Source: Halovenus rubra (GTDB taxonomy: Archaea; Halobacteriota; Halobacteria; Halobacteriales; Haloarculaceae). Taken from it: 64,000 bases of DNA. The stretch covers positions 60,533-124,532 of the forward strand of contig NZ_JAODIY010000011.1 in NCBI RefSeq assembly GCF_026586665.1. Direction: 5' to 3'. This document shows, piece by piece, positions 20,806 to 34,492 of the stretch; position 1 is the first letter of the stretch, and every line of letters begins with the position of its first letter. The notes below the pieces were generated by a model, which saw only the letters and a list, made by a program, of their open reading frames with translations, was not told the DNA's origin and did no database searches. A program made the translations under genes and the position numbers.

Positions 20806-23313
20806 ATGGCAATTGATGACCCCGGGGGGGAAGAAAATACTAGCACTGGGGGTGTTGTGAGCTTCGACGATAGCGTAGTCGTTGGAGAGTACTCGTGGAG
20901 CGACTTTCGCCGCGAAGAACATGAAGAAGGTCGGTTTGATCGGAGCAAATACCTGAAATTCGATCCACGGGAAGCGAGTGACCGGCTGACGTCTGGCGCA
21001 GGTCATGCAAAAACGCTACACAACGCTGTTGAACAGTATCGCGACCCAAGTGGACAGAGAATTGTCGTCGGACGCTACACCTGGGAACATTTCAAGCAGG
21101 AATACTATTATAACGAGGACGGCGAGCGACCCGAAGATGCCGACCCGTTCGATCCTGAAGAGTATCTGGGTTTCGACCCCGACGAGACAGAGAGTCGAAT
21201 CAACAGCGCGCAATCTGCAGCGAGCACGCTCGCAAACCTCGTCGACAAACGGACAGTTGATGTAAACGCCGAGCTTGACGAGGACGAATTCTTCTCGACT
21301 CGTGACGAGACAGCAACAGTGGTCAACCGGTACGACCTCGAAAAGGCCGTCCCGATTGAAAAGAAGAGCCACTTCATCGAACAGCATCGTTACTGGGTCA
21401 ACAAGCCTTACGCGTGTGTTATCGTTTTCAAATCACAGAAAGAAAACGAGATCAAGTATTACGTTATTGAACCACATCTCAACGATATCGAGGCGGACCT
21501 CCGTGAGTTCCTCTCACGGAAACTCAAAACCGCAATCAAGTACTCCGAAGATGATGTCATTGTTCAAGGGAGCGAACAGGACCGCGCCGAGGTTATCGAG
21601 CGCGAGTCAGAGCGCCTGCTACGGCGGTACAACATCTTCACCGGCGAGCGCACAGTCAAAGACGATGGCTCCGATGAGAGTTTCCTTGACTCAGTTAAGA
21701 GCCTGATTGGTGCTGGTGATGACGACGACGCTGATTGGGAGGAGCTTCCGGAACTGGATGGTGTCAAGTCACGGCCCGAACCGGCGGTACTGAAAGAGGA
21801 CAGCGACACCCTCAACGAGTATCAAGTCGAGAAGATGTTGTACATGCTCAAGCGAGACTTCATCGGGTATGCAAATATCGATCCGATTAAACACGATATC
21901 AACGTCGAAGATATTTCATGTGATGGGTACAACAGCCGCGTCTTCGTCTATCACACAGACTACGAGCAGATTATTACAAACATCGAACACGGCGAAGAGG
22001 GCCTCGACGATTTCGTTGTGAAACTCGCTCAGCGGTCAGGCAAAGGTATCTCGAAACGTCAGCCACAGGTAGACGCGACACTACCAGACGGGTCGCGTGC
22101 GCAGTTGACTCTCGGAGCAGAGGTTTCTGACCACGGAACAAATTACACCATCCGTCAGTTCAAAGATGTGCCGTTCACGCCGGTTGACCTTATCAACTGG
22201 AATACATTTAATCTCGATGAGATGGCATTCCTGTGGCTCTGTATCGAGAATCATAAGTCACTGATTTTTGCCGGCGGTACAGCGTCAGGGAAAACGACGA
22301 GCCTCAATGCGGTCTCGTTGTTTATTCCATCTAGTGCCAAGATTGTCTCCATTGAGGATACACGGGAAGTTGAGTTGCCACAGCGAAACTGGGTCGCAAG
22401 TGTCACCCGTCCTTCCTTCGGTGAGGATGACAAGGGAGATGTTGACGAGTTCGACCTACTGGAAGCCGCACTGCGTCAACGTCCTGACTATATCGTGATG
22501 GGTGAGATTCGTGGTGAGGAAGGGCGTGTTCTCTTCCAGGTGATGTCAACAGGCCACACGACTTACACCACGTTCCACGCAGACACTGTCGGTGAAGTTA
22601 TCAAGCGATTTACCACCGACCCGATTAATGTCTCAAAAACACTGTTCACCGCACTAGATCTGGTATCGATTCAGACTCAAACGCGGGTCGGCGGTCATAA
22701 GGTCCGGCGTAACAAGAAGCTGACCGAGATCAATGAGTATTCGCCGGAAAATGATGAAATCAACGTTCGAGATGTCTACGAGTGGCGCGCGGAAACCGAC
22801 CAGTACCTCCAGATGGGGTCATCGAGCACGCTCCAAGAGATCAAGTTCGACCGAGGCTGGTCCCAAGACCGACTCGACAGGGAACTGTTCAAGCGGAAAG
22901 TTGTCTTGTCCTACCTCATCCAAAACGGCCTAAACTCATACACCGAGGTAGCCGCGACAGTGCAGGCGTTTATTAATGATCCCGAAACCATACTCGCCAT
23001 TATCGCACAGGACCACCTCGAACGGTCCCTAGAAGACCTCCGCGAGATGGAGTCGGTTCAGATTGAAGTCGACCCCGAAAAAGAAGAACTCGTGCCACGG
23101 CCCGACCCGACCGACGCCGTCCACGAGGAAACCGAGGATATCTTGACAAGCGCAGAGCCGCTGCTCGAACAGTACCGCAAGATGGAGACGAGCGACCTTG
23201 TCTCGGCGTTGCAGGGCGGCGAAGACTCAAACACTGTCGAAGCCGACGAACAGAATGATATCGACTTTGGGCAGTTTGTTCCGAAGGCAGGGGCTGAAAA
23301 TGATGGGGAATAA
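20806..23313 (+). CDS. pilB: Type IV pilus assembly ATPase
   Basis: The hexameric secretion ATPase of the archaeal pilus machinery (type II/IV secretion family), 835 residues. The catalytic core has Walker A GGTASGKTT (Lys496), the Asp box SIEDTREVELPQRNW, Walker B YIVMGEIRG with Glu567, and the His box TGHTTYTTFHAD. The N-terminal region is unusual: a motif VxVGxYxWxxF followed by Y-L-x-F-D-P occurs twice, at about 24-78 and 86-147. The acidic linker around 300-320 is low-complexity. Cytoplasmic, working with PilC encoded 6 bp downstream to assemble pilin-like proteins encoded further on. Confidence 0.92.
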   Translation: MAIDDPGGEENTSTGGVVSFDDSVVVGEYSWSDFRREEHEEGRFDRSKYLKFDPREASDRLTSGAGHAKTLHNAVEQYRDPSGQRIVVGRYTWEHFKQEYYYNEDGERPEDADPFDPEEYLGFDPDETESRINSAQSAASTLANLVDKRTVDVNAELDEDEFFSTRDETATVVNRYDLEKAVPIEKKSHFIEQHRYWVNKPYACVIVFKSQKENEIKYYVIEPHLNDIEADLREFLSRKLKTAIKYSEDDVIVQGSEQDRAEVIERESERLLRRYNIFTGERTVKDDGSDESFLDSVKSLIGAGDDDDADWEELPELDGVKSRPEPAVLKEDSDTLNEYQVEKMLYMLKRDFIGYANIDPIKHDINVEDISCDGYNSRVFVYHTDYEQIITNIEHGEEGLDDFVVKLAQRSGKGISKRQPQVDATLPDGSRAQLTLGAEVSDHGTNYTIRQFKDVPFTPVDLINWNTFNLDEMAFLWLCIENHKSLIFAGGTASGKTTSLNAVSLFIPSSAKIVSIEDTREVELPQRNWVASVTRPSFGEDDKGDVDEFDLLEAALRQRPDYIVMGEIRGEEGRVLFQVMSTGHTTYTTFHADTVGEVIKRFTTDPINVSKTLFTALDLVSIQTQTRVGGHKVRRNKKLTEINEYSPENDEINVRDVYEWRAETDQYLQMGSSSTLQEIKFDRGWSQDRLDRELFKRKVVLSYLIQNGLNSYTEVAATVQAFINDPETILAIIAQDHLERSLEDLREMESVQIEVDPEKEELVPRPDPTDAVHEETEDILTSAEPLLEQYRKMETSDLVSALQGGEDSNTVEADEQNDIDFGQFVPKAGAENDGE

Positions 23314-23319
23314 TAAGAG

Positions 23320-25512
23320 ATGAGTCTTGACAAACAGCGTGGTAGGCAGGTCAACGCTGGAGAAAGCTCGCTTGGCGGTGCGTTCTATCCGCTGTACCAG
23401 TGGCTGTTCGACGACGAGAGTGAGTTTGTCACGAGCGTCGAAGAAAAGCTGGCCCAGTCACGGATGTCCGACAACGTCGAGATGTTTCTCTCGCGGGCGC
23501 TTGCAGTCGGACTCATCGCCGGGCTCGGTCTGTGGGTTCTGGGGATGCTCATCGGCTGGCTATTCGTCCAAGTGCTTGTCGAGGGCGCACTTATTGGAAT
23601 CCAACTACCCGAATCAGTGAGCTTTCTCCGGCTGCTCCGGACGCCGTTTATCGTGCTCTTTTCGGGTCTTCTCTTTGGCTCAATTGGCTTTGCCATTGGC
23701 TTCGGTTCAGTTGTCTCGATTCCGTACTTCCGTTCTGGCGGCCGCGAGCGTGAGATTAATACATTGATGCCTGACGGGATTGCGTTCATGTATGCGCTCT
23801 CGGTCGGAGGCATGAACCAGCTCGAAATCCTGAAAGCGATGGCAAAGGCTGACGACACTTACGGCGAGCTTTCCCGGGAGTTCCAGTCCATTGCACTGGA
23901 GACAGAGTATTTCGATACGGACTACCGGACAGCTGTCCGGAACCAAGCATTGACAACCCCGAGTGACGAGCTTGCACAGTTCCTGACTGATATGCTCTCT
24001 ATTCTGGACTCGGGTGGAGATATGACCAATTTCCTCGAAGACCAGAAAGACAAACACCTCCGGACAGCAAAGCAAGAACAGCGTAAGTTGCTCGACACCC
24101 TCGAATTGTTCGGCGAAATGTACATGACGCTATCGTTGTTCCCGTTGTTGCTCATCATCATTCTGGTCATTATGAGCATGATGAATAGTGGCGACCAGAC
24201 GACGTTGCTGTACGGAACCGTCTATGGGCTGATTCCGTTGATTGGCGTGGGCTTTCTCGTGATGGTCTCGACCGTTACCCACGACGAAGTCGGTGATGGC
24301 TACCTTCGACCTGACGCAGGCGAGGAGTTCACCGTTGACGAGGGGATTGGCGTGTTCAACCCGGGACTCGTCGAGGAATACACCGGCGAGCGGGACCTCT
24401 TTGACAAGATCAAACGGCAAGAAGGTACCCACGAGTTGATGGAGATTGTTACAGCCCCACACTTGTTCTTCCGGGACCACCCTACGCTGGTTTTGATTCT
24501 GACGCTGCCGCTAACACTGTTAGCCATGCTGGGTGCGCTGGCGAGCGGAAATATGCCACTTTCCATCGACGCGATGAAGGCTGATCCGGTAGTGGGAACG
24601 ATAATGTGGGTGTACGTCCCACTGTACGTGAATTTATTGCCGCTTGCAATTTTTTACGAGTGGAACGTCCGTTCACGCAAAGCCATTCTGGACGACCTCT
24701 CGGAGAATCTGCGAAAGCTTGCGAGCGCAAACGACACCGGGATGACGCTGCTAGACTCGATTAAGGTCGTCTCTGAAACGTCTTCGGGCAAGCTATCACG
24801 GGAGTTCGAGACGATGCACTCAAAGGTGAACTACGGGACAAGCCTGAAAGATGCGATGCGGGAGTTCAATAATAAGTATCACGTTCCACGGCTGTCCCGC
24901 AGCATCAAACTCATCAGCGAGGCTCAAGAGGCATCCAGCCAAATCCATGATGTTCTTGCAACGGCAGCGACGGCCTCCGAAAACCAAGACGAAATCGAGC
25001 GCGAGCGCAAGGCACGGACGTTGATGCAGACAGTCATTATTATTATGACCTACCTCACACTGCTTGCTGTGATGGCACTGCTAAAAGTCCAGTTCTTGGA
25101 GACGATGGGTGGGCTGGCAAGCACCGGACAAGCAGCCGGAGAAAAAGGAGCCCAAGCAACTGGAGGGGGGGCTGGGGAGTTCGCTGGCGGCATTGATACC
25201 CAGTTCCTCTCGATGCTGTTCTTCCATGCAGTCACGCTGCAAGCGATTATTTCGTCGTTCATCGCAGGATACATCCGCAACGTCGAGTTGCTCTCAGGAG
25301 CCAAGTATGCAGTTGTTCTGTCGACAATTGCCCTCATTACGTGGATTATTGTCGAGCAGATAACCGGCGGTGGCGGAGAAGAGACAGCGGAGGCGTTGCT
25401 AGTGTTTGGAGTCGGGTCAGTCGGCTGGTCCGTCCGAGACCGAATTGAGTTGGCGTGGCGACAGCGAGATGAGCAGGAAACAAACACAGCCACAAACCAC
25501 ACGGGGAGGTGA
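23320..25512 (+). CDS. pilC: Type IV pilus platform membrane protein
   Basis: The inner-membrane platform of the pilus machine, 730 residues with two type II secretion F domains, the archaeal duplicated form. The first is around 145-290 with GIAFMYALSVGGMNQLEILK, FLTDMLSILDSGGDMTNFLE and a membrane helix LFPLLLIIILVIMSM; the second is around 450-600 with RKLASANDTGMTLLDSIK, LSREFETMHSKVNYGTSLKDA and TVIIIMTYLTLLAVMALL. Extra helices lie at 65-90, 105-130, 315-340, 390-430 and the C-terminus. There is a glycine-rich loop near 610. The start follows pilB by 6 bp; the end overlaps the ribosome binding site of the next gene. Confidence 0.92.
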   Translation: MSLDKQRGRQVNAGESSLGGAFYPLYQWLFDDESEFVTSVEEKLAQSRMSDNVEMFLSRALAVGLIAGLGLWVLGMLIGWLFVQVLVEGALIGIQLPESVSFLRLLRTPFIVLFSGLLFGSIGFAIGFGSVVSIPYFRSGGREREINTLMPDGIAFMYALSVGGMNQLEILKAMAKADDTYGELSREFQSIALETEYFDTDYRTAVRNQALTTPSDELAQFLTDMLSILDSGGDMTNFLEDQKDKHLRTAKQEQRKLLDTLELFGEMYMTLSLFPLLLIIILVIMSMMNSGDQTTLLYGTVYGLIPLIGVGFLVMVSTVTHDEVGDGYLRPDAGEEFTVDEGIGVFNPGLVEEYTGERDLFDKIKRQEGTHELMEIVTAPHLFFRDHPTLVLILTLPLTLLAMLGALASGNMPLSIDAMKADPVVGTIMWVYVPLYVNLLPLAIFYEWNVRSRKAILDDLSENLRKLASANDTGMTLLDSIKVVSETSSGKLSREFETMHSKVNYGTSLKDAMREFNNKYHVPRLSRSIKLISEAQEASSQIHDVLATAATASENQDEIERERKARTLMQTVIIIMTYLTLLAVMALLKVQFLETMGGLASTGQAAGEKGAQATGGGAGEFAGGIDTQFLSMLFFHAVTLQAIISSFIAGYIRNVELLSGAKYAVVLSTIALITWIIVEQITGGGGEETAEALLVFGVGSVGWSVRDRIELAWRQRDEQETNTATNHTGR
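25505..25512 (+). promoter_or_regulatory. Shine-Dalgarno site deciding the start of the first pilin-like gene
   Basis: GGAGGTGA matches the 3' end of archaeal 16S rRNA and lies 8 nt before ATG 25521. It decides for that codon over the GTG at 25509. The site overlaps the pilC stop codon, as expected for internal operon genes in haloarchaea, while first genes are leaderless. Confidence 0.6.
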
Positions 25513-25520
25513 CTGTGGAA

Positions 25521-25976
25521 ATGAGCGAACGTGCCCAGACGGTGAACGATTATCTGCTTGGAATTACAATTTTCCTCGTCTCAATAATCCTCGTTTTTGG
25601 GTACTTTCCAAATGTGTTTATGCCCTTTGAGGAGGAGGTTGGAAACGACGAATCGGTGATGGCCGAAAACATCGCTGCCGAACTTGTCGAGAACAGTTCG
25701 GTTGCCGAGGCAGAGCGAACAGTCGAGTTTGCCGCGCTCAATCGGAGCATGGACTCGCTTGCAAATGACGCCACACAAGTCGGCATTCCCGACTGGCTGC
25801 GCTGGAACGCCACAGTCCGCAACGGGACTGGGATGGTGGTAGAATCAGCTTCCGAGCGCCTGCAAAATGGGAGTGTCTGGCGGGATAAAACCGCAGCGAC
25901 GACGATTCGGTTCGTCCGGATAGAACAACCTGGTGTGTGTGATGACGGCTGTCGACTAATTGTGAGGGTATGGTGA
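25521..25976 (+). CDS. Pilin-like protein, DUF7287 type
   Basis: A 151-residue single-pass protein. The N-terminus has ERAQT followed at once by the hydrophobic helix DYLLGITIFLVSIILVFGYF, which is the arrangement of archaeal type IV pilin-like proteins processed by a prepilin peptidase; DUF7287 is the family I recall for this position behind PilB/PilC. The outer domain (about 40-151) is mostly helix then strands and has only two cysteines, close together in VCDDGCRL near the C-terminus. Start chosen by the Shine-Dalgarno site. Probable minor pilin or assembly factor; direct function not known. Confidence 0.75.
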   Translation: MSERAQTVNDYLLGITIFLVSIILVFGYFPNVFMPFEEEVGNDESVMAENIAAELVENSSVAEAERTVEFAALNRSMDSLANDATQVGIPDWLRWNATVRNGTGMVVESASERLQNGSVWRDKTAATTIRFVRIEQPGVCDDGCRLIVRVW

Positions 25977-26602
25977 CGATGGCAAAAGAACCAGACAGTA
26001 CACAGACGCGAACGGATAGAGGACAGGCGTACTCGTTGGAAGGCGTTATTGGTGCGATTCTCATCGTCAGTGCGCTTGTACTCGGACTTCAGGCAGTCAG
26101 CGTCGCACCGTGGGCAGACAGCGGTTTCGAGCAGGGGACTGACATACGAGAGCAAATGGAGGACACGCTCGATATACTCGAAGACCAAGACGCGCTCCGG
26201 ACCGGAGTACTTTGCCTAGGTGGTGAGAACGAAAGAACACCCCACGTTGGGGTAGTGTCAGCTGATCCAGCAGTGGACCCTTTCGGAACGGTACTGAACC
26301 AAACGGCAAGCACGACAACAGATTACAATATCTATGTTGATTACCCGTCGAACGGAAACGTTAATCGGACGCTACTGGGAACCCGCTCACAGCCAACTGG
26401 GTCAACCGTCACCGTGACGCGTGAGATTGCGCTTTTTGACTCCGACACGATGTTTGAATTTAATCCGAACACGCCTGCGTGTGTTGTGGATTCCCAGTAC
26501 GACGACCTCGGAGATGTCCCGGACAGTGATATTTACCTCGAAAACCAGAATGAGGATACTGAACTCTACGCAGTCGTGCAAATCAGGGTGGTAGCATGGT
26601 AA
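25970..26602 (+). CDS. Pilin-like protein, DUF7288 type
   Basis: About 210 residues, overlapping the previous gene by 7 bp. After a short polar N-terminus, DRGQAYSLEG leads into the helix VIGAILIVSALVLGLQAVSV, which is the pilin-like RG-Q motif plus N-terminal helix. The outer part is a beta-rich domain with two cysteines, in VLCLGGENE and PACVVDSQ, and NYTS-like N-glycosylation sequons (NQTAS, NRTLL). ATG 25979 is an alternative start. A likely minor pilin in the same operon; the DUF7288 assignment rests on memory of the haloarchaeal operon pattern. Confidence 0.75.
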   Translation: MVTMAKEPDSTQTRTDRGQAYSLEGVIGAILIVSALVLGLQAVSVAPWADSGFEQGTDIREQMEDTLDILEDQDALRTGVLCLGGENERTPHVGVVSADPAVDPFGTVLNQTASTTTDYNIYVDYPSNGNVNRTLLGTRSQPTGSTVTVTREIALFDSDTMFEFNPNTPACVVDSQYDDLGDVPDSDIYLENQNEDTELYAVVQIRVVAW

Positions 26603-27471
26603 ACCAACGGGGGCAATTGATTCTGACTGCGGCGATTCTAGTCTCACTGACCATCGTCGCTTCCGCAATCCTGTTGAACGGCATCCATGCCTCTGCTGAT
26701 GTAAACTCCTATCAGGAACGACAGGGCCTGTCGGAGACAGAGCGAAGCGTCGCGCAGGTACAGGAAAACTTGGAGACACTCTTTTTAGCAAACGGTTCAC
26801 AGGAGAGTCTACCCTATGTCACCGACAAAAGCGCGTTCAAGTCGGCCATTCAAGAGTATCAAGAGCAGTATCTGAACCTATCAATCAAAGAGAGTTCAAG
26901 GTTTATGAATGTATCACTAGCTGGGGCAGATGATACTGGTGGCAATGCGATATGGCAAAATGAGACGAATACATTTCCATCAGGGCCTATCGTAAACGGA
27001 GCCCCAGAGAACTTGACAGCCATGTCATTCTCTTTTGTAGAAATTGACACGGAATTTACTATCGAGATCAAAGGCAGTGGATCGTTCCCGATAACGGTTC
27101 GGGATAACGAAGTCGAGATTGACGGAGAAGTCGTCTGTAACGGATACAGCGTAGATGCTGATAATCCAGTAGAGATAGAGCTAGCCCACGGGGAAGGGAC
27201 AATCAGTGCAGACCAGCAGGTCTGTACAACAGTCTCGTTCGGTTCCGCATATCACAATACCAACAAGCACGTGACCTTCGATAATGTTGGCAATGATAAA
27301 GGAACATTCAGCATTGTGGCCGACGATGGAAACGTGCAGATGGCACAGGACCCCAGTAAGGACAGATACAAAAAAGAGAATGTTCTCATCAATCCGATAA
27401 TTCATCTCACCATGCAAGACTCGCAGGTAACCTACGAAGGGAACAGTACGCTCTTTGGAGGAGGTTCGTAA
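26596..27471 (+). CDS. Pilin-like protein, DUF7261 type
   Basis: A 291-residue protein overlapping its upstream neighbour by 7 bp. The N-terminus NQRGQLILTAAILVSLTIV is a pilin-like RGQ motif plus helix (about 4-28). A helical section (about 38-100, SYQERQGLSETERSVAQVQE) is followed by a beta-sandwich-like region with the strand pattern FTIEIKGSGSFPITVRDNEV and two cysteines (EVVCNGYS, QQVCTTV). Several N-x-S/T sites (NGS, NLS, NVS, NET, NLT) suit an exported glycoprotein. Family name is an inference from position and motif. Confidence 0.72.
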   Translation: MVNQRGQLILTAAILVSLTIVASAILLNGIHASADVNSYQERQGLSETERSVAQVQENLETLFLANGSQESLPYVTDKSAFKSAIQEYQEQYLNLSIKESSRFMNVSLAGADDTGGNAIWQNETNTFPSGPIVNGAPENLTAMSFSFVEIDTEFTIEIKGSGSFPITVRDNEVEIDGEVVCNGYSVDADNPVEIELAHGEGTISADQQVCTTVSFGSAYHNTNKHVTFDNVGNDKGTFSIVADDGNVQMAQDPSKDRYKKENVLINPIIHLTMQDSQVTYEGNSTLFGGGS

Positions 27472-27935
27472 TGGTCGATAACAGGGCAGTCTCGATAGCC
27501 GTCGCACATGGATTGACACTTGCGATTACGACGATTCTCATTTCAGGGCTGCTCCTCGGGGCAGGCGATCTGCTTGAGGCACAGGAACAACGGGCTGCAA
27601 AGGCACAGTTCGACGAAATTGGAGGCGATCTTGTCGCACAGTTGAACACGCTCGACCGTCTCAATAGCACCGGCGACGAGGTCAACGTCACAGTCCAGCC
27701 AGAGTATCCCGAACAGGTCGCTAGTGGGAGGTGGAATCTTGAACTGCAAAGTGGCTCCGAGAGTTCCACATACACAACAGCGAGCGTCATACGAATCGAA
27801 TCACCAAGCCATGACCGCACAATCGAGTATCCGCTCAGTAACAGTACCAGTATCAACTATGGCACGCCAGCAAACAGCTACAAGCCAGTTATCAGCCTCT
27901 GCAACGGCGAGATTACGTTTGGTGAGTGCTCATGA
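27471..27935 (+). CDS. Pilin-like protein, DUF7266 type
   Basis: A 154-residue protein; the start shares one base with the previous stop (TAATG) and has a good Shine-Dalgarno site GGAGGAGG 6 nt upstream. DNRAVSIAVAHGL leads into the helix TLAITTILISGLLLGAGDLL, the RA-V-S variant of the pilin motif, then an amphipathic helix (AQEQRAAKAQFDEIGGDLVA) and beta strands. The two cysteines are at the extreme C-terminus in LCNGEITFGECS. It resembles DUF7266 in the known haloarchaeal series. Probably a minor pilin. Confidence 0.72.
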   Translation: MVDNRAVSIAVAHGLTLAITTILISGLLLGAGDLLEAQEQRAAKAQFDEIGGDLVAQLNTLDRLNSTGDEVNVTVQPEYPEQVASGRWNLELQSGSESSTYTTASVIRIESPSHDRTIEYPLSNSTSINYGTPANSYKPVISLCNGEITFGECS

Positions 27936-28795
27936 ATCGACAACAGCCGCCGAATAACGGGAACGGAAAGCAAACCACAGAGCGTGGAGTCTCTGATGCG
28001 ATTGGGTTTACCTTGATGTTCTCGATAATCATCGTCGGGGTTGGACTGATTTCGCTTGCAGGCGGGACCCAAATCACGGACTTGAGCGATGCCGAAGAGC
28101 TACACAGTGCAGAACGCGGGATGCAATCGACGGCAGCGACTCTTCAGCCAATGGCGACGAACGGTGACCTACAGCGGAGTTTCAGCCTTGCATTCTCTAA
28201 CAGTAACATCTGGATGAACCAGAGTACACTAAACATAACGGCGGCTGATAACTCGGTGAACTATCCAGCGTTGGATATCAGTTCGTTCGAACAACGGTTT
28301 GACCGGTCAAATGGAGATATAACCATCCGCTACGAGGGTGGTGGTGTCTTCCGAGACAACGCAATTCCTGCGTATGACCCGATGTTTACGTGTCGAGAGG
28401 GCCCGGGGGGAACGAACACCGCGATTGTGACAGTAGTAAATCTCACGCTGGCAGAGCGAGATGGACTCTATATTTCTCAGGGATATAACCCGAACGTTCG
28501 GTTCAATGAGTTTGCTGGAACAGATGAAGCACCAGTGTCAAATACCGATAAAACATTGAATTTCGACGCAACACTGGTCAGTACAGAAGCAAACCGCTCG
28601 GAGAGCGATACCGAACTCTATGTGAACACCAGTCAGACCGCTGGTCCTGACCAGTGGGATATCTACTTCGAAAATAAAGAAAGCTGGGAGTCAAAAACGA
28701 ACCCAGAGCACGTTCACAAGTGTGATGTTGACCAGACTCTTATCAGGGTAGTGACTATCGAAGTGGAGATTATCGAGCCGCGGTTCTCAAACTGA
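27932..28795 (+). CDS. Pilin-like protein, DUF7289 type
   Basis: A 287-residue protein with a 4-bp ATGA overlap with the preceding gene. After about 19 polar residues, ERGVSDAIGFTLMFSIIIVG is a textbook archaeal type IV pilin motif (RGVS plus helix). The helix SDAEELHSAERGMQSTAATL follows, then a long beta-rich domain. Its two cysteines are in FTCREGP and HKCDVD, far apart in sequence. The strand ending IRVVTIEVEIIEPRF closes the domain. It is the last gene of the tight operon; 208 bp separate it from the giant VWA gene. Confidence 0.75.
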   Translation: MNRQQPPNNGNGKQTTERGVSDAIGFTLMFSIIIVGVGLISLAGGTQITDLSDAEELHSAERGMQSTAATLQPMATNGDLQRSFSLAFSNSNIWMNQSTLNITAADNSVNYPALDISSFEQRFDRSNGDITIRYEGGGVFRDNAIPAYDPMFTCREGPGGTNTAIVTVVNLTLAERDGLYISQGYNPNVRFNEFAGTDEAPVSNTDKTLNFDATLVSTEANRSESDTELYVNTSQTAGPDQWDIYFENKESWESKTNPEHVHKCDVDQTLIRVVTIEVEIIEPRFSN

Positions 28796-28966
28796 CGATC
28801 GCAGTGTAGAACCGAAGAGTTTGTGGCTGCAGATATCGCATCTGAAAATAGTTGGTACAGGCCGGCAATTAGCGGTACCATAGATAATACTGGCATTAAG
28901 AATTTGCATTTTATCGCAGTAATGTGGTCCAAACGGCCAGAGCCTAGAGCAATTTGAAGACTCAAT

Positions 28967-28976
28967 AGTATTAAAT
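28967..28976 (+). promoter_or_regulatory. TATA box of the giant VWA pilin gene
   Basis: AGTATTAAAT lies about 32 nt (centre) before ATG 29004, so the giant gene has a promoter of its own and an almost absent leader. It can therefore be expressed apart from the pilB-pilC operon. Confidence 0.5.
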
Positions 28977-29003: not shown

Positions 29004-32000
29004 ATGGATATTCGCCACATCATTGATGATGAACGTGGTGTATCAGAAGTATACGGGGCATTCCTTATCATTTCGATTGTGGTGGTAATGGGTGTTCTTA
29101 TAGTGGGATTAGGATTTCTCGCGTTCAATGATAGTACCGATAACGTAGACGATGACTTGGTCAAGCAGTCGATGCAGGAGTTCGATAGCCGTGTAAACGA
29201 ATTGAGTGAAGCTGATGTAAGTGAAACCGTGACGATGGAGTTCCCGGAGGGAGCCGCGGATAAAATCGATGCACAACCAGACCATGGGACAGTCAATATC
29301 TCAATCAAGACGGGCGATATGTATTGGGATATCACCAACCCCAACGGTACGCTTCTCGATAATGCGAGTAGCCAGCAGAATACGACCGAAATTACGCTGG
29401 GAAGTCTTGTCTACGAGAACAAAGATGGGCAGATGACCGCGTTTCAGGGCGGTGCAGTCTGGCAAAAAGAGGGAGACAGCGTAACGATGGTCTCACCACC
29501 TGACCTCCATGTCAGCGACGGAACCGTTGACTTCTCGTTTGTCAATATTTCGGCAATTGATTTAGTACAGGAAGGACAAGAGGTTGCGCTAAAGAAAGAC
29601 CCCAAAGCGTCAGCTGTCCGGTCAGAGTCAGTGATGCAAATCGTTGAGCAACAACTCTTGAGCCATTACCCCGATGGCCGGAACGTCGCAAACGCGACCA
29701 TTTCGATGAACATCACCAGCAAGTTTGCCGAAGGGTGGAAGCAGTACGCAGATTCGAATCTTGAAGTCGCGGGTACAGAACTCCACGATGCAAGTGAGGT
29801 TGCTGGAGACCTTGATAAAGTGGAAATTACGATTGGAACGTACGGTGATGGGCTTGCAAACGTCGACGGTAATCGTACGTACGATACGAACGTCACCTAC
29901 AGCGGTTACACTGAGTTTGCACAGGACCTCTACGATAACGGTACTGCTCACACCAGTTCGTCGTGGAACGCTAACATCACAAATAGTACAGCAAAGACGT
30001 TCAACGTCACAAAACCGGGATGGAATACCAACGAGTATACCGTCGGAGTGTTGCACAACAACGAGAGCCGCGGAAATGGGCCGGAGTGGTGGGCCTGGAA
30101 CGGGTCACATTGGCGAAATGTCGAGGACCCACACGCAGCGCCGCTAGATTTACCCGATTTCTCTGCAGTAAACAGGGCACCGACAGGGAGCGGAAACGAA
30201 TTTGAGTTCAATTCCTCAGAGACGTGGAGTTGTGTCGCCGCCACTGCAGATAAACACGACCCCGACGATTTCAGGGAGTTCATTCCAAACGAAACAGAGT
30301 ACAAGAGCACGTCAGTCTCGAACGGTTGTCTTGCTGGACCTGCTGGAATCAACATTACGAAAAACGACGGCTGGAAAGATTATGTTGGAGATTTCAAGAC
30401 AGATTTCAACATCACAGGGTTCGACGTAACTGTCAAAGATAAAAACGGGAACAAACTGTCAACCTTTGACCCGAAAAACGACTATCTCCAACCCGGGTAC
30501 ACGCTCAACATGACCGTGGAGGGCAAAAACGAGGGGTACCGTAACGCGACTAGCAACGAAATACCGCTTGGTGTCCTCTATGGCCAGAATTCAACCAGTA
30601 AAGCAAAGATAGCCGAGGACCCCCGGATAATCAACGGAACTCGGTTGGGGACGAACATGGGAGAGACATTCTCGCGAAGCTACACCTTCGATGTAAACGA
30701 CGCAAACGACCAGTACTTCCTCGGCGTCGGCGCTGGCACGCCACACGATGCTGCTGGCTTTGCAGACAACTACACGGTTGAAGTAGTCACAAAAAGCAAT
30801 TTCAACGTCACGATTACAGATAACAAGGTCGGTGGCTCAAACACTATCGAAGGAGATTCTGTCTCCGTTGGTCTCAATGTGACCAACGTGGGGCCAATTA
30901 AGGACAACCAGACGGTGTTCATCTGGGGAGAAAAAGAAAACCAAAAGGTGCTCACAACGTCGGAATTCTCGTTGAATCCTGGACAATCTAATACTACATC
31001 ATTGACTTGGAAAACCGAGGTGGGCCGGGAAGCGAGCTGGACGAAAATAACTGCAAGTGCGCCATTATCGAAAGATTCGGTGAACAACGACACTGTCCCG
31101 CTTGACGTACAAAAGCCGCCAAATGGGCCCAAGTTCGACGTGACAATACTCGGGACGAACGCGACTGCGCCGACGCGGAGCGTAACGGAGGGAGAACAAC
31201 TCACAGTCGATATCAAGGTCAAGAACACAGGTGATGCGCCGGGGAAGCCTACAGCAGTGCTGTATAACTCGACTGCCGGAGCGGACAAGCCCGTAGACGG
31301 CGTGGAAGCTCCCAAAATCGCGGATGGAAATACCTGGAGTACAACGCTCACGTGGTATACATTTGTCAACGACTCATCAGGAGACACGCACGTAAAAGTT
31401 GAAGTCGGCAGCGACACTGCCCAAAAGAATGTCACCATCGAACCACGGGAGCCAACTCGTAAACCAGCGGACGTGGTGTTCGCTATCGACGAAACTGGAT
31501 CGATGGGAGAACCGGGAGGGTATCAGGACGACGTGGTATTCTATAATCCACCAACGCCAGTCAAAAAGGTCGTTCCAGATGACGAGATGTGGAAGGTTGA
31601 GGTTTATGAAAAGCCGTGTAATGGTAATGGTAATTGTCCCTACAACAAAGTCAACACAGACAAGTTCTTTGTCACCGGGCAAGTTGTCAATCTCACCGAG
31701 TACAACGTAGCCGACAGCAGCCGCGCGGTGCAAGTTATCAAATACGGCTACCCGGACGATTGGGACGATCAGGACAAAGACATCGAACGGATTCCGGCAA
31801 TGTGGACCGCAATAGAGGCGATGAACACCTCGCTGGATCGGGGCGCAGCCCTGCAGTTCGATACCGAACAGTCGTTCCACCACAGCCTGACTTCGGACCT
31901 GACAGCACTGAACGAATCGCTCAGAGTCGACCCAGAAGGTGGTACGAATATTGGTGGCGGGTTGGGTGCCGCAATGACCGAACTCGTCGATGAAACAGCC

Positions 32001-33395
32001 CTTGACGTTGGAAACCCGGACCAGGATAGAGCGCAGGTCGTCATTCTGCTCACCGACGGACAGCACAACGATGGGACGAACCCGGTGTCGGTCGCAGAGG
32101 AAACGAATGTGACGAACGGCGATGATCCACTCGACCTGTCGGTATACACCGTCGGTTTCGGAAACGCCAACGAGGGACAGCTCAAGCAAGTTTCCAACAT
32201 CGCTGGCAACGGCCAAGGCAACTTCACCTGGGCAGATAATCCAGAAGATATCGCAGGTATCTTCGAGGGACTCATCAAAGACGTCACCTCCGAACGCCCC
32301 AAAATCAAAATCACAGACATGACTCCCCTCGGCGGGAGCACAATCAAAGAAGGTGACTCGCTCACAGTCGAGGTAGAGGTCAAAAACGTCGGAAGCGGGA
32401 CGGGAAAAGTTCCGATCATGCTCCGTGAGCAACTCACTACCACCGGCATCGGCATCCCAGTCAACGCGACGAGCGTCGATATCGCTCCAGGGAGTACAGA
32501 GACATTCAATCTGTCGTGGGATACCACCGGGGCAGTTGACCCCGGAAATAATGTGACCGACGGTATCGTCGTCGAATCACCGCAGAATGAAGATGGAACA
32601 ACAATAACCGTCGAGAACCCCCTAGCGAGTTTCGTCGTCAACGACGTTGTGACAAACGCCGACGACGGCACAAATTCGATTACATCCGGTGAGGACCTTG
32701 TCGTCGATGTCAACGTCACCAATGCCGGCTCAAAGACAGAGAAACAGGACCTGATATTCAAACGGAACGATACGAATATAGGGAGTCCACTACCGATTAC
32801 GACCAACAAAACGAAAACGTTCATCCCTGGCGAGACTTCCTGGGTTAATGGGACAGTCATTTCGTCGGCCGAGATAGTGGCAAACACCACGAAGCTCGTC
32901 GTCGAAACCGAGGACGGCAGCGTCGAAAAACAGGCCGTTAACATCACAACGAATACTGCCACAAACGTTACGGTGAGTATCGACCCGAACAATATTCCGC
33001 CAACTGATAGTTCACAGGCGGTCGACGCCGGCAAAACTGTCACTGTACCGGTCAATATAACGAACACCGCCAGCACCTCAATTACGGACAATCTCGTGGT
33101 TAGCCTCTACAAACAACTCGATGTTGCTGGCAGCCCGGAATCGCTGGCAAACATTACGACGGTGACACAAAATATCGGAGCTGGAAATAGCATCTTTGTG
33201 GATGTCGAGTGGGATACGACTGGCAATGGCTGGGAGGACGACCCGTGGGTGCTCACTGCTGAAGTCGAGACCGAGGCAGACACGGTCGATGTCTGGGTCA
33301 ACGAAGCGGATGGACCCCCACTTAGTGGTCCTCAGTTCGGGAACGGTGGTTCGGGAATTAGCTTTGGAATCGAGGACATCGAGGTCGCTGACTGA
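29004..33395 (+). CDS. Giant pilin-like VWA adhesin with CARDB-like repeats
   Basis: A 1463-residue exported protein. Residues 10-37 are a pilin signal: DERGVSEVYGAFLIISIVVV, as in the neighbouring small proteins. A DUF-like region follows to about 600. Then CARDB-like adhesive beta-sandwich repeats at about 604-675 and 712-812, a von Willebrand A domain (about 823-1043), and three more repeats at about 1099-1205, 1209-1315 and 1320-1430. The metal site is complete: DETGS (829-833), Thr981 in GGTNIGGG, Asp1018 in LLTDG. About 80-90 extra residues sit directly after DETGS, with CNGNGNC (872-878). Cysteines number four (410, 442, 872, 878). No C-terminal anchor; many N-glycosylation sites. Confidence 0.85.
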   Translation: MDIRHIIDDERGVSEVYGAFLIISIVVVMGVLIVGLGFLAFNDSTDNVDDDLVKQSMQEFDSRVNELSEADVSETVTMEFPEGAADKIDAQPDHGTVNISIKTGDMYWDITNPNGTLLDNASSQQNTTEITLGSLVYENKDGQMTAFQGGAVWQKEGDSVTMVSPPDLHVSDGTVDFSFVNISAIDLVQEGQEVALKKDPKASAVRSESVMQIVEQQLLSHYPDGRNVANATISMNITSKFAEGWKQYADSNLEVAGTELHDASEVAGDLDKVEITIGTYGDGLANVDGNRTYDTNVTYSGYTEFAQDLYDNGTAHTSSSWNANITNSTAKTFNVTKPGWNTNEYTVGVLHNNESRGNGPEWWAWNGSHWRNVEDPHAAPLDLPDFSAVNRAPTGSGNEFEFNSSETWSCVAATADKHDPDDFREFIPNETEYKSTSVSNGCLAGPAGINITKNDGWKDYVGDFKTDFNITGFDVTVKDKNGNKLSTFDPKNDYLQPGYTLNMTVEGKNEGYRNATSNEIPLGVLYGQNSTSKAKIAEDPRIINGTRLGTNMGETFSRSYTFDVNDANDQYFLGVGAGTPHDAAGFADNYTVEVVTKSNFNVTITDNKVGGSNTIEGDSVSVGLNVTNVGPIKDNQTVFIWGEKENQKVLTTSEFSLNPGQSNTTSLTWKTEVGREASWTKITASAPLSKDSVNNDTVPLDVQKPPNGPKFDVTILGTNATAPTRSVTEGEQLTVDIKVKNTGDAPGKPTAVLYNSTAGADKPVDGVEAPKIADGNTWSTTLTWYTFVNDSSGDTHVKVEVGSDTAQKNVTIEPREPTRKPADVVFAIDETGSMGEPGGYQDDVVFYNPPTPVKKVVPDDEMWKVEVYEKPCNGNGNCPYNKVNTDKFFVTGQVVNLTEYNVADSSRAVQVIKYGYPDDWDDQDKDIERIPAMWTAIEAMNTSLDRGAALQFDTEQSFHHSLTSDLTALNESLRVDPEGGTNIGGGLGAAMTELVDETALDVGNPDQDRAQVVILLTDGQHNDGTNPVSVAEETNVTNGDDPLDLSVYTVGFGNANEGQLKQVSNIAGNGQGNFTWADNPEDIAGIFEGLIKDVTSERPKIKITDMTPLGGSTIKEGDSLTVEVEVKNVGSGTGKVPIMLREQLTTTGIGIPVNATSVDIAPGSTETFNLSWDTTGAVDPGNNVTDGIVVESPQNEDGTTITVENPLASFVVNDVVTNADDGTNSITSGEDLVVDVNVTNAGSKTEKQDLIFKRNDTNIGSPLPITTNKTKTFIPGETSWVNGTVISSAEIVANTTKLVVETEDGSVEKQAVNITTNTATNVTVSIDPNNIPPTDSSQAVDAGKTVTVPVNITNTASTSITDNLVVSLYKQLDVAGSPESLANITTVTQNIGAGNSIFVDVEWDTTGNGWEDDPWVLTAEVETEADTVDVWVNEADGPPLSGPQFGNGGSGISFGIEDIEVAD

Positions 33396-33454: not shown

Positions 33455-34492
33455 ATGGACACAGCCGAGCGTCTGGACCTCGTTACACAGTACGCCGAAG
33501 AGGTAATCGAGGAGGATGAGTTACGGGAACTGCTCGAGGCCGAAGACGACCCATCAGTGTACATCGGATACGCACCCACGGGCGAGATGCACATCGGCCA
33601 CTTCACGACGATTCGGAAACTGGCCGACTTTCTACAGGCCGACCTCGACGTGACCGTTCTCGTCGCAGACCTCCATGCACATCTCGATGATGAGAAAAGC
33701 CCCTTCGATTTGCTCGACGCACGAACCGAGTACTACCAAGAAGCAATCGAAGGGATGGTCGAGGCCGCGGGAGCCAACCCCGACGATATCTCGTTCGTCC
33801 GTGGCATGGACTATCAGCTTGATGAAGAGTACTCGCTTGAACTGTATCGCATGGCGGCGGAGACGACACTCGCTCGTTCACAGCGCGCGGCCAGTGAAGT
33901 CGTCCGGGAAAGTGAGAGTCCAAACCTCGGCGGCGTCATCTACCCACTTATGCAGTCACTCGACGTGAAATCACTGGATGCCGATATCGCCTATGGAGGT
34001 ATCGACCAGCGTGGTATCTACATGCTCAGCCGCGAGATGCTCCCAGAACATGGTCATGATAAGCCAGTCTGTCTGTTTGCCCCGCTGCTGGCCGGCCTGA
34101 CTGGTGACAAAATGAGTTCTTCGAAAGACGCCTCAAAGGTAAACCTCACCGACGACCCCGATACTGTCGAGTCGAAAATTGACGACGCGTACTGTCCGAT
34201 GGGTGAAGTTGAGGACAACGGTGTTCTTGAGTACGTCCGTTATCTTGTGTTTCCGGTGCTCGACGAGTGGGACGACTCGTTTGTCGTCGAGCGCCCAGAA
34301 CAGTACGGCGGCGACCTCGTTTATGAGCGCTATGAAGAGCTCGAAGCCGATTTCGAAAGCGAGGAACTCCACCCGGCAGACCTCAAAAGCGCGACTGGAA
34401 GCTATATCTCCGAGGTTATCGACCCAGTTCGCAAGCGTTTGACCAGCCAATCCGACCTACTCGCCAAAGCCTACCCCGAAAGCCACGAGTAG
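33455..34492 (+). CDS. tyrS: Tyrosyl-tRNA synthetase, archaeal/eukaryotic type
   Basis: Charges tRNA-Tyr. The 345-residue class I enzyme is the short archaeal form without the bacterial S4-like domain. Motifs: VYIGYAPTGEMHIGHF (HIGH, about 36-49), VLVADLHAHLDDEKSPFD, YPLMQSLDVKSLDADIAYGG with the tyrosine site, GIDQRGIYMLSRE, and GDKMSSSK (about 218-223). The C-terminal helices (HPADLKSATGSYISEV) match the anticodon-binding region. The start is supported by a TATA box and by homology. Followed after 6 bp by the methyltransferase gene. Confidence 0.95.
   Translation: MDTAERLDLVTQYAEEVIEEDELRELLEAEDDPSVYIGYAPTGEMHIGHFTTIRKLADFLQADLDVTVLVADLHAHLDDEKSPFDLLDARTEYYQEAIEGMVEAAGANPDDISFVRGMDYQLDEEYSLELYRMAAETTLARSQRAASEVVRESESPNLGGVIYPLMQSLDVKSLDADIAYGGIDQRGIYMLSREMLPEHGHDKPVCLFAPLLAGLTGDKMSSSKDASKVNLTDDPDTVESKIDDAYCPMGEVEDNGVLEYVRYLVFPVLDEWDDSFVVERPEQYGGDLVYERYEELEADFESEELHPADLKSATGSYISEVIDPVRKRLTSQSDLLAKAYPESHE

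Follow-up and report, generated by a model that had tools for sequence, protein, structure and literature searches.

A giant DUF7289 protein beside a Halovenus type IV pilus operon as a candidate modular minor pilin presenting a VWA domain at the pilus tip

The window analyzed here is a stretch of 64,000 nucleotides (nt) from the haloarchaeon Halovenus rubra (NCBI RefSeq assembly GCF_026586665.1, contig NZ_JAODIY010000011.1, positions 60,533 to 124,532 of the forward strand), in which a type IV pilus (T4P) operon is followed by a gene for a giant protein of 1463 amino acids (aa). An earlier note had singled out this protein as a candidate pilus tip adhesin with an archaeal pilin signal, a complete VWA metal site and at least five CARDB-like sandwich repeats around it, lacking a C-terminal anchor. 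The features of the gene are as follows:

29004..33395, plus strand: giant modular pilin, 1463 aa (open reading frame (ORF) translation, Pfam, hidden Markov model (HMM), AlphaFold2)
29004..29123, plus strand: aa 1-40, comprising the class III signal peptide, with the cut expected behind Gly12, and the N-terminal hydrophobic helix
29034..29819, plus strand: DUF7289 pilin head, aa 11-272, with the motif AFQGGAVW (Pfam E 6.6e-11)
30795..31421, plus strand: two CARDB-like sandwiches N-terminal to the VWA domain, aa 598-678 and 718-806 (HMM i-E 9.7e-6 and 7.5e-8; AlphaFold2 strands)
31470..32279, plus strand: VWA domain, aa about 823-1092, with a metal ion-dependent adhesion site (MIDAS) of DETGS 829-833, T981 and D1018 (Pfam, residues, AlphaFold2 alternation)
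31503..31787, plus strand: MIDAS arm, an insertion at aa 834-928 with a Cys pair at 872 and 878 (relatives' arm lengths, Cys positions)
32328..33224, plus strand: three CARDB-like sandwiches C-terminal to the VWA domain, aa 1109-1182, 1218-1260 and 1334-1407 (HMM i-E 6.7e-5, 1.3 and 15; AlphaFold2 strands)
33354..33392, plus strand: conserved C-terminal strand GISFGIEDIEVAD (terminal pattern in relatives)

The product begins MDIRHIIDDERG/VSEVYGAFLIISIVVVMGVLIVGLGF, with the slash marking the expected cleavage, and its class III signal, of the archaeal pilin type, reads DDERG/VSEVYGAFLIIS. Among the 110 ORFs of at least 120 aa in the window, five pass a FlaFind-type rule combined with a hydrophobic helix, namely the giant and the four genes directly upstream. 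The pilin signal on a 1463-residue product, as given in the earlier note, is borne out. In the AlphaFold2 model of one relative, the head takes the form of a long helix plus a sheet, with a predicted local distance difference test (pLDDT) of mostly 70-95 for this block. Beyond the N-terminal helix, a second hydrophobic segment, an LPXTG motif and a PGF motif were all not found in the sequence, in line with the absence of a C-terminal anchor noted earlier. No NCBIfam family covers these proteins, and a direct sequence search of the PDB returned nothing useful. The giant further contains 51 N-glycosylation sequons against 20 expected by shuffling (2.5-fold; the maximum of 300 shuffles was 32), an excess that fits a surface protein.

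The central module is a VWA domain (Pfam match at aa 944-1083, E 9.3e-11) whose MIDAS combines a DxTxS version of the DxSxS motif with a threonine and an aspartate in three loops (D829, T831, S833, T981 and D1018), at the very residues given in the earlier note. The complete site is also present in the VWA-type relatives that we read. AlphaFold2 modeling of aa 280-1463, proposed earlier as a check of the VWA fold, displayed the Rossmann-like strand-helix alternation of the domain between the sandwiches, at moderate confidence (7 sequences, mean pLDDT 56.7). A Foldseek search with this model recovered multi-sandwich proteins, I-domain integrins and the inter-alpha-inhibitor heavy chain, with low global TM (template modeling) values because the domain orientations are undefined in the model.

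The Pfam match begins late because an insertion of about 95 residues, the MIDAS arm, directly follows DETGS. Across the Halovenus VWA proteins, 25 to 400 aa separate the MIDAS serine from the core motif that comes next, with the arm of one species (locus L038) holding two PPC domains. The Cys pair of the H. rubra arm (window positions 31617-31637, aa 872-878) has counterparts in most Halovenus VWA proteins; similar arm pairs were seen at loci L036, L037, L038 and L039, in proteins that are otherwise cysteine-poor. Further, the arm spans 25 aa at L035 and 103 aa at L036, which come from closely related Halovenus species; thus, its length is able to change fast.

Flanking the VWA domain on both sides, the CARDB-like sandwiches were detected with an HMM built from the Pfam CARDB matches of relatives, since the Pfam CARDB model itself has no match in the giant. 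This HMM yielded the five repeats (57.9 bits in total) that had been proposed as a minimum, three of them significant (aa 598-678, 718-806 and 1109-1182) and two weak (aa 1218-1260 and 1334-1407). A possible sixth sandwich is visible at about aa 468-578 in the AlphaFold2 model, at moderate confidence.

At the other end of the protein, a strand-like pattern closes 44 of the 47 distinct modular proteins, compared with 2.8% for interior ends chosen at random; this contrast is descriptive, as the pattern was picked after the ends had been inspected. This strand is kept irrespective of the module carried. Because of its presence, anchoring by the pilin helix alone, to which the earlier note had limited the protein, is plausible only. 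We also considered a scheme in which the modules are inserted ahead of the last strand of the DUF7289 head, with the C-terminal strand completing that head, and a profile test gave it no support: in the three proteins scored, the DUF7289 profile reaches positions 229-244 of 262 before the insert, and their C-terminal tails showed no consistent win over random segments. In the AlphaFold2 model of a relative, the tail has low confidence and no confident placement. We retain the completion of the pilin head by this strand as a possibility.

The gene neighborhood links the giant to a T4P assembly machine:

20806..23313, plus strand: pilB, T4P assembly ATPase of the PilB3 type (Pfam T2SSE E 2.3e-31, PilB3_C E 6.4e-9)
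23320..25512, plus strand: pilC, T4P membrane platform protein (Pfam T2SSF in two stretches, E 2e-28)
25509..25976, plus strand: DUF7287 minor pilin-like protein (Pfam E 1.4e-30; fails the strict signal rule)
25970..26602, plus strand: DUF7288 minor pilin-like protein (Pfam E 3.5e-35; passes the signal rule)
26596..27471, plus strand: DUF7261-like minor pilin (Pfam E 8.1e-5, below the curated cut-off; signal MVNQRG/QLILTAA; synteny)
27471..27935, plus strand: DUF7266 minor pilin (Pfam E 6.4e-13; signal)
27926..28795, plus strand: short DUF7289 minor pilin, 289 aa, of the same family as the giant's head (Pfam E 1.3e-25 over the full profile; signal)
28965..28975, plus strand: TATA-like, AT-rich element preceding the giant by about 30 nt (read by eye)
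33455..34492, plus strand: tyrS, the housekeeping gene bounding the slot (NCBIfam PRK08560 E 4e-121; position kept in complete Halovenus loci)

A methyltransferase gene lies beyond tyrS, downstream of the giant. The order pilB-pilC-DUF7287-DUF7288-DUF7261-DUF7266-DUF7289-giant-tyrS is conserved in the complete Halovenus loci examined. The TATA-like stretch makes a promoter of the giant's own possible. PilB relatives are near-universal in the order (192 of 194 genomes). As a separate observation, a second pilB-like match in one genome (G173:C3:283080-284963), with 74% identity to aa 1-624 and three in-frame TGA stops, is probably a decayed copy, judging by those stops. At two further loci (L045 1957-5810 and L051 3071-6760), two DUF7289-DUF7305 proteins, each about 610 aa long, are encoded in tandem near a second DUF7287/7288/7261/7266/7289 gene set, with neither pilB nor pilC detected in these stretches; hence, some genomes may have a second minor-pilin cluster.

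A scan for PilC yielded 80 named haloarchaeal loci, of which 29 have a long or modular DUF7289 gene near the operon; in Halovenus this gene shares the strand of the operon, and in other genera its orientation is mostly convergent. In the Natrialbaceae loci, no long DUF7289 gene was seen within the flank. By manual count, open frames of 440 codons or longer with a clear match to DUF7289 are present in 37 of the 44 genomes sampled from the order; these frames run from stop to stop, such that their lengths are upper bounds. Other genera also have modular DUF7289 genes at a distance from pilB-pilC or oriented opposite to it. This speaks for an alternative role of the giant, namely a cell-surface adhesin or receptor acting at the cell body, with an uncleaved or unpolymerised pilin helix as its membrane anchor, in the manner of bindosome-like proteins whose class III signals do not lead to long pili. 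Such a role would also suit the very large size and sequon excess of the protein, and the 208 nt that separate its gene from those of the minor pilins. We nevertheless regard it as unlikely, given that in complete Halovenus loci the giant has a fixed place behind pilB, pilC and the minor pilin genes as the last gene of the operon, and that its head and the adjoining short minor pilin are members of one family.

The modules attached to DUF7289 heads are diverse. Pfam matches reveal heads combined with VWA and CARDB in Halovenus and Salinibaculum, with VWA alone in Halorhabdus, with VWA and PKD in Halapricum, and with VWA, DUF7305 and thrombospondin-3 repeats in a Haloarculaceae archaeon. Heads with CARDB occur in several genera, those with GLUG in Halovenus, and those with DUF7305 or DUF7308 in many haloarchaea. 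The slot flanked by the short DUF7289 gene and tyrS differs among Halovenus species, some having a VWA-type and others a GLUG-type giant there, with lengths of 1378-2267 aa; GLUG-type modules in place of VWA were seen in Halovenus relatives at loci L041, L042, L044, L047 and L048.

A tree of the operon proteins places VWA and GLUG species as sisters twice (L039/L041 and L038/L042, support 100/100), with L039 covering only 40% of the tree columns. These two mixed pairs require at least three module changes on the operon tree. In the L039/L041 pair, the proteins can be aligned over aa 13-938 (34% identity) and again over the C-terminal part (29%), with VWA replaced by GLUG between these regions. 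At the N-terminal side, the GLUG sister gives a stronger match (333 bits) than a VWA protein of another branch does (225 bits). This comparison points to a swap of the central module within the gene, although it is possible that larger parts of the gene were replaced.

The repeated exchange and the widely varying lengths invite the idea of a fast-diverging S-layer-like or decoy protein, shaped for example by virus or predator selection and using the pilin signal merely for export. We consider this the least probable of the explanations weighed here: the VWA-type proteins that we read preserve the MIDAS residues, pointing to a functional metal site, and both the head and the C-terminal strand are conserved. 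The GLUG modules of sister species speak against one conserved sensing role, as would be expected if the VWA domain were mainly a mechanosensor or assembly factor, by analogy with the proposal for PilY1 that tension at the tip alters the conformation and signals surface contact, with adhesion being secondary. Here, the operon logic does resemble fimU-pilVWX-pilY1-pilE, with its minor pilins and large VWA protein (in part after PMC5979040), several Halovenus proteins have the Cys pair in their MIDAS arm, and passages of PMC8806160 report VWA-dependent surface sensing for PilY1. No archaeal signaling partner was identified in this analysis, and a mainly sensory or assembly role appears quite improbable.

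We therefore favor the reading of the giant as a modular minor pilin that displays its VWA domain as an adhesin on the tip of a type IV pilus, with a rough probability of 0.68. A tip adhesin held by its pilin helix fits because the operon supplies pilB, pilC and five minor pilins, the N-terminal module is that of a pilin, and a protein of this bulk is easily placed only at the filament tip; the proposed tip position follows from this bulk and the operon. Several points weigh against this reading. A class III signal alone is no proof of incorporation into a pilus, and the pilin fold of the DUF7289 head is predicted from the signal, helix and family. Foldseek matches of the relative's model included VWA folds, but the top 50 contained no pilin. 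The AlphaFold2 models are of moderate to low confidence (mean pLDDT 56.7 for aa 280-1463 of the giant and 57.0 for the relative). Further, in view of the 208-nt gap after the short DUF7289 gene, the giant may be transcribed separately from the minor pilins.

The following scheme, predicted from cleavage through to the ligand, builds on the signal, head, VWA domain with its complete MIDAS, sandwiches, operon and module exchange described above. The prepilin peptidase would cut after Gly12, whereupon the hydrophobic helix of the DUF7289 head and the five minor pilins encoded alongside could polymerise into a tip complex that is assembled first, and the neighboring PilB and PilC would build the pilus bearing it. 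The tower of CARDB-like immunoglobulin-type sandwiches would then raise the VWA domain off the filament, such that its Mg/Mn MIDAS face, framed by the variable arm, might bind a surface ligand. The DUF7289 head would be the constant carrier, with the outer module (VWA, GLUG, CARDB, PKD, DUF7305 or DUF7308) exchanged across haloarchaea, whereby the pilus would change its target with the machine unchanged. We give an even chance to the broader proposal of a haloarchaeal exchangeable tip system, in which a constant DUF7289 carrier sits in a fixed slot by the T4P operon, the module is swapped within the gene between sister species, and the C-terminal strand may return the chain to the filament. 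If true, one could read the targets of archaeal pili off the genome.

The targets and the binding subunit of archaeal pili are little known, and the Halovenus locus offers a concrete tip candidate bearing a mutable metal site, with a tip module that would be exchangeable between sister species, as seen at its slot. The family of DUF7289 heads with variable modules might likewise provide a route to adhesins in most haloarchaeal genomes. Within the open literature that we searched, a scope that leaves aside preprints and most subscription papers, we found no paper on archaeal proteins of this kind, and the modular DUF7289 family appears undescribed. Passages of an archaeal T4P census treat adhesins and minor pilins in general terms, describe vWA proteins as regulators, and contain no pilin-VWA fusion (PMC4858521). 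Among haloarchaeal loci, Haloferax volcanii PilB3-C3 is required for adhesion (PMC6491452) and the pil-1 locus of Halobacterium salinarum for pili and adhesion (PMC4292770). By Pfam, they share the class of ATPase and platform protein with the Halovenus operon; however, they are reported without adjacent pilin genes (PMC6491452, PMC4292770), whereas six pilin-like genes follow in Halovenus.

The VWA pilus-tip design is not new in kind, being preceded by the VWA modular pilins of bacterial T4P, adaptable Tad tips and PilY1. The earlier note had framed the giant as convergent with sortase-assembled pili of Gram-positive bacteria. RrgA-type tip adhesins have a VWA domain with arms at the pilus tip, the arrangement proposed for the giant; yet their assembly is unrelated, and the giant has no C-terminal LPXTG-type sortase signal and would belong to a non-covalent archaeal type IV filament. 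The framing is incomplete, for VWA modular pilins and minor-pilin/PilY1 tips within the type IV filament family are nearer (PMC8179133, PMC12075869). Pseudomonas aeruginosa PilY1 with FimU-PilVWXE shares the layout of a minor-pilin operon with one large VWA tip protein, but PilY1 is not a pilin, whereas the giant joins pilin head and VWA domain in one polypeptide and has no Pfam match to the C-terminal PilC beta-propeller of PilC/PilY1 proteins. TadG and the KilLMN Tad tips of Myxococcus likewise use minor pilins with exchangeable outer modules to customise the tip (PMC12075869); however, their pilin families differ, with the giant lacking a TadE-like Pfam match and having a DUF7289 head instead, and the Halovenus exchange takes place within a single gene, whose slot next to tyrS is fixed.

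Closest in design is the modular type IV pilin as delineated in PMC8179133. The giant has an N-terminal pilin module in the form of DUF7289, albeit not matched to the bacterial IPR012902 motif, and an extra module that is not T4P-specific, namely the VWA domain with its MIDAS and the CARDB-like repeats. PilB of Streptococcus sanguinis, a bimodular VWA type IV pilin, establishes that the mechanism works in a bacterium (PMC8179133), and it shares with the giant the class III signal, N-terminal pilin module, VWA domain with a complete MIDAS, protruding MIDAS arms and proposed tip position (PMC8179133). Both S. sanguinis PilB and RrgA have two arms at the MIDAS (PMC8179133), which the Halovenus arm would resemble in design. 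In contrast to S. sanguinis PilB, the Halovenus giant has an archaeal DUF7289 head, is about three times larger, embeds its VWA domain in a tower comprising five or more CARDB-like sandwiches, varies its arm from 25 to 400 aa among relatives and has VWA swapped for GLUG in sister species. The modular-pilin strategy, so far described from bacteria, is thereby indicated to reach the archaea via a different pilin head.

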